Shown: positions 17,590 to 20,269 of the stretch, one piece after another
Numbering within the stretch: position 1 is the first letter of the stretch
How the letters are laid out: each line of letters opens with the position of its first letter
Origin: Clostridium sp.
Lineage (GTDB): Bacteria > Bacillota > Dethiobacteria > Dethiobacterales > Dethiobacteraceae
DNA length: 47,874 bases
Assembly (NCBI GenBank): GCA_018335695.1
Contig: JAGXRV010000020.1
Span: 1-47,874 of the forward strand
Direction of reading: 5' to 3'
Position numbers and translations under genes: made by a program
Notes under the pieces: generated by a model
Databases searched by the model: none
Told to the model about the DNA's origin: nothing
Seen by the model: the letters and a program-made list of their open reading frames with translations, nothing else

Positions 17590-19665
17590 TTAATTTTCTT
17601 TTTTCAAATCAAACAGGTTGCCAAAGACGTCTCCCAGAGTCACGCCGGTACCGGCATCCTGAGGCTGCTGCACTTCTTTTGCAATTTCTTTTTTGGGACG
17701 CGGAGTTGCTTCACGCATACTTAAACTTACTCGCTTAGCATCGGTATTGATATCCAAAATTTTAACTTTTACTATTTGGCCTTGCTGCACTACCTCAGAG
17801 GCCTGCTTCACATGATGATTAGCCAACTGGGAAATATGAACCAAACCCTCGACACCGGGAGCCAATTCCACAAAAACTCCGAAATCCACGATGCGAGTCA
17901 CTTTCCCTTCGGCAAGATCACCTGGTTTGAACTGTCTGGCAATTTTAGTCCATGGGTCAGGCTGCGCTTGTCGCAGAGACAAGCCTATCCGATCCCTTTC
18001 CGGTATTACATCAATTACTTTAACATCAACTTCGTCGCCTATATTCAATATTTCTCCGGGATTATCAATACGGCTCCAAGACATTTCGGAAATATGAACC
18101 AAACCGTCTATTCCTCCCACATCCACAAACGCGCCAAAGTTAGTGAGGCGTTTTACTGTGCCGCTGATTACTTGACCAGGCTTTAAGGAGTCAAGGATTC
18201 TTTTCTTCTTTTCCGCAGCTTCTTCTTCTAAAATTTGTTTACGGGACAAAATCAACTTTTCCTTTTCCCGGCGCATCTCAATAACTTTAAAAGAAACCAT
18301 TTCGTTTAAAAATACGCTGAAATCAGGAACAAAGGTGACATCCACCAAGGAGCCGGGCATAAATCCTTCGTATCCGCCGCCCAAATCCACCACCATGCCG
18401 GCTTGGACGACTTCCTTTACACGACCGGTCATGACTGTCCCATTTTCGAAAGCTTGTTCCAATTCAGCCCACTTTTGTTTTCGTTCTATGGTTTTACGGG
18501 AAAGTACAATCTTTCCTTCCTGTTCTTCAACTGCTTTTACTGCCGCTTCTACTTCCTGTCCCAAGCTGTATACGGAAGAGAGTTCCTGATCTGCAGCTAA
18601 GATTACTTCCTGGCGCGGGAGAACGGCCTCGCTCTTGTAACCAATGTCAACAAGTACTTCCTCTTCAGAGATTTGAACGACGACACCTTTTAACACGTCT
18701 CCCACAGAGAACTCCCAGCCGGCTTGATTCATCGCAATTTTCTCTGCCGGCTCCTGTTCCTGCCCGCTGTCTTCAGTTACTTGCTCATTCAGAATTTCTT
18801 CACTATTTTTTTCTTTTTCCATCTTTTCCATCTTCTCCATCTTAGTTATGACCTCCTTTATCGTCCAGTGGGGTGTCGAAGTGCCGGCGGCAACCCCTAC
18901 TGTCCTTACACCTTGCAGCTGACTCAAATCAAGCTCGGCTGCTTCTGTAACAATGATTACTCTGATGCCGCTATTTTTGCAAATATCTGCCAGTTTTTTT
19001 GTGTTAGCGCTTTTCTTGCCGCCAACCACCACCATTACATCAACAACACCTGCTAAACTGCGAACATTTTCCTGCCGAAAAGCAGTTGCCTTGCAAATAG
19101 TATTATATCTTTCAACCACCGGAAAAAGTGCTGTTAATTTTTCACCGACTTCTTTCAACAATGACTCGTCTTGTGTAGTTTGCGCCACCAGAGCTACAGG
19201 CTTTTCCGGCTTAAGGCTCTCTAAGATTGCTAACTGACTTGAATCAGCAAACACATACGGCTTTTGACCCGCCCAAGCCATTACTCCAACGATTTCCGGG
19301 TGATGCCGATCCCCCAAAATTACAACCTGTTTGCCTTCGCCGACAAGTCTGGCCGCTAAAATTTGCAGGTTCCTGACAAAAGCACATGTGGCATCAATTA
19401 TCGCCAGTTTCTTTGCTTCTGCTTTTTTAAGGACTTCCGGACTAACACCGTGAGAGCGGATAAGTAAGGTGGCGTTGTCCGGCACTTCAGCCAGATCGTC
19501 CACAAATACCACGCCCTGCCTGCTCAGCTCTGTCAACAAACGTTCATTATGTACCAACTCTCCTAAGCAGTAAACGGTACCGCTTTGAGCTGCCTGTTGA
19601 GCCAGCTCCACCGCTTTTGCTACGCCACTGCAAAAGCCGATGTGTTCTGCCGGAATAATTTTCAG
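17590..19665 (-). CDS. ispH: IspH (HMBPP reductase) fused to ribosomal protein S1-like domains
   Basis: Bifunctional fusion typical of Clostridia. Residues 1-276 are IspH, the [4Fe-4S] enzyme reducing HMBPP to IPP and DMAPP. The three cluster cysteines fall at about 12 (GFCSGV), 94 (IDATCAFV) and 191 (TICKAT), with active-site histidines at about 39, 72 and 122 and HPE at about 122-124. A short acidic, lysine-rich linker (277-318) joins four S1 RNA-binding repeats, beginning near residues 321, 410, 490 and 580 (for example LTNFGAFVDVGGIDGLVHISEM). The nearest standard start, GTG 19611, would delete 18 residues including Cys12. A CTG at 19665 follows GGGGTGA by five bases and places LKIIPAEHIGFCSGV in register with other IspH proteins; an in-frame stop lies just upstream. 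Confidence 0.92.
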   Translation of the reverse strand: MKIIPAEHIGFCSGVAKAVELAQQAAQSGTVYCLGELVHNERLLTELSRQGVVFVDDLAEVPDNATLLIRSHGVSPEVLKKAEAKKLAIIDATCAFVRNLQILAARLVGEGKQVVILGDRHHPEIVGVMAWAGQKPYVFADSSQLAILESLKPEKPVALVAQTTQDESLLKEVGEKLTALFPVVERYNTICKATAFRQENVRSLAGVVDVMVVVGGKKSANTKKLADICKNSGIRVIIVTEAAELDLSQLQGVRTVGVAAGTSTPHWTIKEVITKMEKMEKMEKEKNSEEILNEQVTEDSGQEQEPAEKIAMNQAGWEFSVGDVLKGVVVQISEEEVLVDIGYKSEAVLPRQEVILAADQELSSVYSLGQEVEAAVKAVEEQEGKIVLSRKTIERKQKWAELEQAFENGTVMTGRVKEVVQAGMVVDLGGGYEGFMPGSLVDVTFVPDFSVFLNEMVSFKVIEMRREKEKLILSRKQILEEEAAEKKKRILDSLKPGQVISGTVKRLTNFGAFVDVGGIDGLVHISEMSWSRIDNPGEILNIGDEVDVKVIDVIPERDRIGLSLRQAQPDPWTKIARQFKPGDLAEGKVTRIVDFGVFVELAPGVEGLVHISQLANHHVKQASEVVQQGQIVKVKILDINTDAKRVSLSMREATPRPKKEIAKEVQQPQDAGTGVTLGDVFGNLFDLKKEN

Positions 19666-19684
19666 CTAACTCACCCCAACCGTT

Positions 19685-20269
19685 TTATCCTCTCTTACGC
19701 AAGCGGTCAATCTCCTGCATTATCTTGCCTGCTACCTCTTCAAGCTGTTCCGCCTTATTTTTCAGGCCGTAATACTCCGGAAAAGTAATTGGCGCGCCGA
19801 TACGTACTTTGATTTGACGTAATATCTTAAATGAACCGATAATCGCAATGGGAACCACAGGCACCTCACTTTTAATAGCAATCAGCGCTACGCCTGAATG
19901 AGGCACTAACAATTCATCGGTGCGACTGCGTGTTCCTTCCGGAAAAATTCCCAGCACCTCGCCGCTCTTTAAGATCTCCAGCGCTCTTCTGATCGCCCTG
20001 CGGTCTGCGCTGTTCCTTCTAACCGGAAAAGCGTGAAGCAATGGCATAATTTTGCTAAAAACAGGAATCTGAAACATTTCCTCTTTAGACATAAAATGGA
20101 CAATTCGCTTTGTCAGACAGCCGATTAGCGGAGGATCCCACCAAGAAATGTGGTTCGAACAGAGGATACAGCCCCCTTTGCTCGGCAAATGCTCCCGGCC
20201 GGCAATCTCCCAACGAAACAGAAATCTAAAAATCAAACTGAAAATCTGACGCACAACCCAGTAAAACAC
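19685..20269 (-). CDS. plsC: 1-acyl-sn-glycerol-3-phosphate acyltransferase
   Basis: Acylates lysophosphatidic acid to phosphatidic acid, the step after PlsY. The 194-residue protein begins with a hydrophobic, membrane-associating segment (FYWVVRQIFSLIFRFLF). It contains the catalytic NHxxxxD motif as NHISWWD (about 39-45), the substrate-binding FPEGTRSR (about 109-116) and VPVVPIAIIGS. It lies 16 bases downstream of cmk and 20 bases upstream of the ispH CTG start, inside the aroH-cmk-plsC-ispH-fni run. Confidence 0.94.
   Translation of the reverse strand: MFYWVVRQIFSLIFRFLFRWEIAGREHLPSKGGCILCSNHISWWDPPLIGCLTKRIVHFMSKEEMFQIPVFSKIMPLLHAFPVRRNSADRRAIRRALEILKSGEVLGIFPEGTRSRTDELLVPHSGVALIAIKSEVPVVPIAIIGSFKILRQIKVRIGAPITFPEYYGLKNKAEQLEEVAGKIMQEIDRLRKRG

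Follow-up and report, generated by a model that had tools for sequence, protein, structure and literature searches.

Apparent CTG initiation and a conserved internal signal, probably a second translation start, in an IspH-S1 fusion gene of Dethiobacteraceae

The window analyzed here is the whole 47,874-nucleotide stretch of DNA from a Clostridium sp. of the Dethiobacteraceae (contig JAGXRV010000020.1). On its minus strand lies ispH-rpsA, a gene for an IspH-S1 fusion (17590..19665), whose ORF translates into 691 aa when read from a CTG codon. In a profile search, the product matched NCBIfam PRK00087 over residues 2-685 with 727 bits (cut-off 624), and Pfam placed a LYTB domain, that of IspH (PF02401, 289 bits; 18835..19659, minus strand), ahead of four S1 stretches in one ORF, identifying the gene as a member of PRK00087. 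The draft assembly (2.35 Mb in 101 contigs) contains one IspH copy, and the sole full-length S1 gene of the genome (G000) is the S1 part of the fusion, with residues 316-685 matching the S1 family PRK06676. The cluster cysteines Cys12, Cys94, and Cys191 were all invariant in an alignment of 18 genomes. Upstream of the fusion is a plsC-like gene (19685..20269, minus strand), the TAA of which ends 19 nt before the CTG.

The minus strand at the 5ʹ end of the fusion reads GGTTGGGGTGAGTTAGCTGAAAATTATTCCGGCAGAACACATCGGCTTTTGCAGTGGC. The CTG (19663..19665, minus strand) directly follows an in-frame TAG (19666..19668, minus strand), which is kept in all four species of the genus and excludes a start further upstream. 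A Shine-Dalgarno sequence, GGGGTGA (19671..19677, minus strand), is located 5 nt before the CTG, and the bases in between are GTTAG, whose last three form the TAG. A preliminary description had reported this arrangement, with the CTG at 19665, and its coordinates and spacing proved correct on the minus strand. The codons after the CTG (AAA ATT ATT CCG GCA GAA CAC ATC GGC TTT TGC) encode KIIPAEHIGFC. The first conventional in-frame start, GTG at codon 19 (19609..19611, minus strand), was rejected from the ORF reading, as it lies beyond Cys12; an ORF from 19611 has 673 aa compared to 691 aa from the CTG, and Cys12 is part of the product only with translation from the CTG, as had been claimed. 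Fusion residue 2 aligned to position 2 of PRK00087, and the first position of Pfam LYTB fell on residue 3, indicating that the CTG is where the family starts, which was also in agreement with the preliminary description.

Twelve genera of the family were searched, and among the 18 genomes with a visible start, the fused gene begins with CTG in 12, TTG in 5, GTG in 1, and ATG in none; one of the 12 CTG genomes, L019, is ambiguous because GTG directly precedes its CTG. The three other species of the genus again have CTG, preceded by TAG and, further upstream, by GAGGTGA. Comparison with orthologues, which had been suggested as a check on the window's codon, thus revealed CTG in close relatives (4/4 in the genus) and no ATG in the family. 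In the same alignment, 12 invariant or nearly invariant leucine columns carry YTG in 54% of cases and none is entirely YTG, compared to NTG in 18/18 genomes at the first codon, indicating a start codon rather than an ordinary leucine.

Several other readings of the 5ʹ end have to be weighed against CTG initiation. A sequencing or assembly error concealing a true ATG, GTG, or TTG, or a decayed gene, might be suspected in a draft of 101 contigs. However, CTG is common to relatives, including three other species and single-contig Halanaerobiales genomes, which excludes a sequencing error, and the frame of 691 aa is intact and single copy, so this explanation has a negligible probability. An equally improbable reading is that the TAG is read through, for example as pyrrolysine, from an upstream in-frame GTG at 19674. 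The sequence GTG-AGT-TAG-CTG is indeed in frame and conserved within the genus, but this GTG overlaps the Shine-Dalgarno sequence, and other genera with CTG have different in-frame sequences before it, with other stops nearby or none. PylS was sought in the genome and not found, which makes pyrrolysine readthrough unlikely. Initiation at an ATT (codon 3 or 4), as in infC, would agree with the two ATT codons that follow CTG AAA in the window and with the ATT start of infC in the same genome. Yet the Shine-Dalgarno spacing would be 11 nt to the first ATT compared to 5 nt to the CTG, and codon 3 is GTT, ATA, ATC, or another codon in relatives while codon 1 stays NTG; we consider this reading very unlikely. 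With one IspH gene, a TAG before the CTG in four congeners, no PylS found in the genome, and CTG in relatives, the comparisons support initiation of the fusion at CTG, the central claim of the preliminary description, as the only good reading remaining.

Control genes in the same family genomes start with ATG in about 96% of cases (rpmI 18/19, rplT 19/19, ispG 19/20, and cmk 17/18, with one apparent CTG read by eye for cmk). CTG starts that were counted automatically for rseP, plsC, and one cmk turned out to be codons adjoining ATG, GTG, or TTG, and no stand-alone CTG start was found among the family control genes. When codons at Shine-Dalgarno distance were counted in sampled stretches of G000 (313 kb), 58 ATG, 19 GTG, 19 TTG, and 7 CTG were obtained, the CTG count being at the background level of ordinary codons; those CTG candidates near frame starts that were inspected lie close to an ATG or TTG. 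A genome-wide habit of CTG initiation was rejected on the basis of this census and of rseP and similar cases, in which ATG, GTG, or TTG is followed by CTG as codon 2. Translational coupling to plsC was likewise rejected as a general reason for a weak start, since plsC and the fused gene are separated by -4 to 20 nt in the family but by 94-193 nt in the Halanaerobiales checked. The start of infC is ATT in 19/19 family genomes.

Beyond the family, CTG is the start of the fused gene in 28 of 33 Halanaerobiales, in which ATG starts the controls rpmI (28/30) and rplT (30/30) and ATC starts infC (with one ATT). Both the genus (4/4) and the Halanaerobiales (28/33) have conserved a start other than ATG, GTG, and TTG, while the window's family mixes CTG, TTG, and GTG. 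Elsewhere in the class, TTG is the usual start of the fused gene (45/62; ATG 9/62), and the phylum sample of 62 contains 31 TTG, 20 ATG, and 7 GTG starts; ATT was also found in two species and ATA in one. As the IspH tree places the window's family and the Halanaerobiales in different clades, each with TTG-rich relatives around it, CTG most simply appears to have evolved at least twice, separately in the Halanaerobiales. A 5ʹ ATG is present in 30/176 fused genes compared to 19/21 unfused IspH genes (p = 2e-11, which overstates independence because the species are related). The preliminary description had overlooked the long conservation of weak starts in the fused gene and the separate order with CTG, as well as the second, conserved internal start described below, which probably accounts for them.

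Two further observations concern the 5ʹ region in other lineages. In the Syntrophaceticus-like L090 and L312, there is no ATG, GTG, TTG, or CTG from the in-frame stop to Cys12 of ispH, so that the start must be ATT, ATA, or ATC. The Halanaerobiales genes L279-L306 have an unusually conserved leader over about 30 nt upstream of the CTG, (GTGTTGTGCTG)GAAGGAGGTGAAGGTT-CTG; the Shine-Dalgarno sequence in it contains an in-frame GTG that annotation would probably pick.

A scan over the family ORFs revealed a peak of synonymous constraint at codons 250-272, that is, at the IspH/S1 junction, where the window reads ATAAAGGAGGTCATAACTAAG ATG. An internal Shine-Dalgarno sequence, AAAGGAGGT (18851..18859, minus strand), runs from the last base of the Ile269 codon through Val272, and the ATG of Met276 (18838..18840, minus strand) is, from comparison of the junctions, the proposed start of a free ribosomal protein S1 of 416 aa (17590..18840, minus strand) with all four S1 domains (PRK06676; Pfam S1, four stretches). 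An in-frame GGRGGT-N10-start occurs in 131 of 132 distinct readable fused junctions (ATG 124, GTG 6, TTG 1) and in 0/19 unfused IspH genes, indicating a ribosome-binding site and start conserved inside the ORF beyond coding constraint, as in a nested gene. The single exception, L087, has AAGGAGG with an ATG a few codons further on. A point against the proposed internal start is that the 10 nt from GGAGGT to the internal ATG exceed the spacing at the infC and ispH starts of the same family.

Synonymous constraint at the internal site was almost complete in the fused genes. The glutamate codon is GAG in 129/131 genes compared to 29% elsewhere in the ORFs, and the lysine codon is AAG in 67/67 compared to 36%. 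The constraint on K/E-E-V could be partly at the protein level, but the choice of codons cannot be explained in this way. The Val272 codon (18852-18850), inside the internal Shine-Dalgarno sequence, is GTG in 0/131 fused genes compared to 22% elsewhere, perhaps avoiding a competing start or an over-strong Shine-Dalgarno sequence. In three Selenomonadaceae (L114, L115, and L131), ispH and S1 are separate overlapping genes in different frames, S1 starting at an out-of-frame GTG nine bases after the shared junction GGAGGT (356 aa for the separate S1 ORF of L114). This split naturally demonstrates that the junction site can serve S1 alone. A candidate internal promoter for S1 was rejected, as no sigma-70-like site was seen near the junction on the minus strand.

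Taken together, these features suggest that ispH-rpsA is probably a fusion whose single mRNA is translated from two starts, IspH-S1 from a weak one at the 5ʹ end and free S1 from a strong one within the frame. The 5ʹ start, CTG in the window and TTG, CTG, GTG, ATT, or other non-ATG codons in most fused relatives, would be weak despite a good Shine-Dalgarno sequence and would yield a small amount of the 691-aa IspH-S1, while the internal AAAGGAGGT-N10-ATG would be read often and give the four-domain S1 of 416 aa. The enzyme-S1 fusion would thereby stay scarce compared with S1, and with less ribosome traffic from upstream, the internal site may remain unoccluded. From sequence comparison we infer that both proteins are made, and in which ratio; a weak 5ʹ start may have been favored because a cell requires more of its ribosomal proteins than of a biosynthetic enzyme. 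There also seems to be a balance between the two starts: the internal start is GTG in 6/26 genes with a 5ʹ ATG compared to 0/103 with a non-ATG 5ʹ start (p = 4e-5), a relation resting on about four lineages with counts that are not phylogenetically independent. In Veillonella and some other lineages, both starts are ATG, indicating that a weak 5ʹ start is common and not required.

It is also conceivable, though rather improbable, that the CTG only sets a low level of a single IspH-S1 protein and that the internal Shine-Dalgarno sequence is silent or serves, for example, pausing between the domains. The conservation of a weak start with a good Shine-Dalgarno sequence would fit, as would the enzymatic activity that the fused protein from a thermophilic Clostridium shows upon expression (PMC4746011). 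A pause, however, needs no start codon, yet ATG, GTG, or TTG stands at +10 in 131/132 junctions; moreover, Selenomonadaceae use this site for a separate S1 gene, and unfused genes are without the internal signal. A further possibility, which we regard as unlikely but less so than the single protein, is that the CTG places ispH-rpsA under the control of IF3, which represses CUG, AUU, AUA, and AUC starts, so that the fusion would be synthesized under IF3 shortage, in parallel with infC. The ATT and ATC (one ATT) starts of infC in the family and the Halanaerobiales, respectively, are in line with this, as are the CTG, ATT, ATA, and apparently ATC/ATT starts of ispH-rpsA in several lineages and the documented repression of a noncanonical start in Streptomyces sigR (PMC5472188). 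On the other hand, CTG alternates in the family with TTG and GTG, which IF3 reportedly does not reject, and most fused genes elsewhere use TTG; this interchange fits a low rate of initiation better than a specific IF3 switch. Speculatively, IF3 control could act as an added layer on the two-start arrangement. Extending that arrangement across Bacillota, we see a slightly better than even chance that IspH-S1 is mainly a nested pair, in which a near-universal internal start would give free S1, the fusion would be the minor product, the two starts would be mutually tuned, and, in lineages with CTG, ATT, or ATA, the minor product would in addition be tied to IF3.

Noncanonical starts, internal starts, and IspH-S1 fusions are each already known. 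The infC gene, encoding IF3, has an ATT start in other organisms and is autoregulated. It resembles ispH-rpsA in being translation-related and in having a conserved noncanonical start with a strong Shine-Dalgarno sequence in the same genomes, but it keeps the AT(T/C) class throughout, whereas ispH-rpsA alternates between CTG, TTG, and GTG and carries a further start inside the gene. Some bacterial genes, such as infB, contain an internal start in frame and give two proteins from one frame via an internal ribosome-binding site, as proposed here; ispH-rpsA differs from these genes in that an entire ribosomal protein, joined to an enzyme unrelated to it, would be nested, and in that the weak start is the one at the 5ʹ end. 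In Streptomyces, sigR has a GTC start repressed by IF3 (PMC5472188), and it shares with ispH-rpsA a conserved noncanonical start, an extended Shine-Dalgarno sequence, and misannotation by software; IF3 repression was demonstrated for the GTC of sigR and is putative for the CTG of ispH-rpsA. The IspH-RPS1 'Rosetta stone' fusions, of the same protein family and domain order as the window gene (PRK00087), were treated as one fused polypeptide (Chem Sci 2015, PMC4746011), and nothing on the start sites of the fusion was found in the text of that paper. No report of an internal S1 start or of ATG avoidance in fused genes was found in the open-licence literature.

Gene prediction restricted to ATG, GTG, and TTG starts would remove 18 residues and a cluster cysteine from an essential enzyme, and such truncation would affect many genomes in at least two bacterial groups. 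The fusion has long been read as one protein hinting at a link between isoprenoid synthesis and translation, and it may mostly yield separate S1. If the two-start reading is true, ispH-rpsA would clearly illustrate how the strength of a start codon sets the ratio of two products from one frame.

An RNA hairpin was predicted upstream of the internal Shine-Dalgarno sequence (18865..18902, minus strand) from a fold of the window, complementarity between wobble bases, and the synonymous-constraint peak. Complementarity between two wobble bases facing each other across the hairpin was seen in 81/130 fused genes, or in 89/130 including G-U compared to 54 expected by shuffling, with A-U, U-A, and G-C all occurring; 5/19 unfused genes are complementary (table read by eye). 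The stem and its exact pairing differ between clades, and we take the predicted hairpin as supporting evidence only, not as a defined element. The family's synonymous constraint has a second, lower peak at fusion codons 177-186 (19137-19108, minus strand), where Leu177 is CTA in 17/18 genomes and TTA in the window, and the CCG and GTT codons after it are conserved. Close to where the first S1 domain begins, Ser345 (18633-18631) is AGC in 17/17 genomes and Arg351 (18615-18613) is CGC in 16/17.
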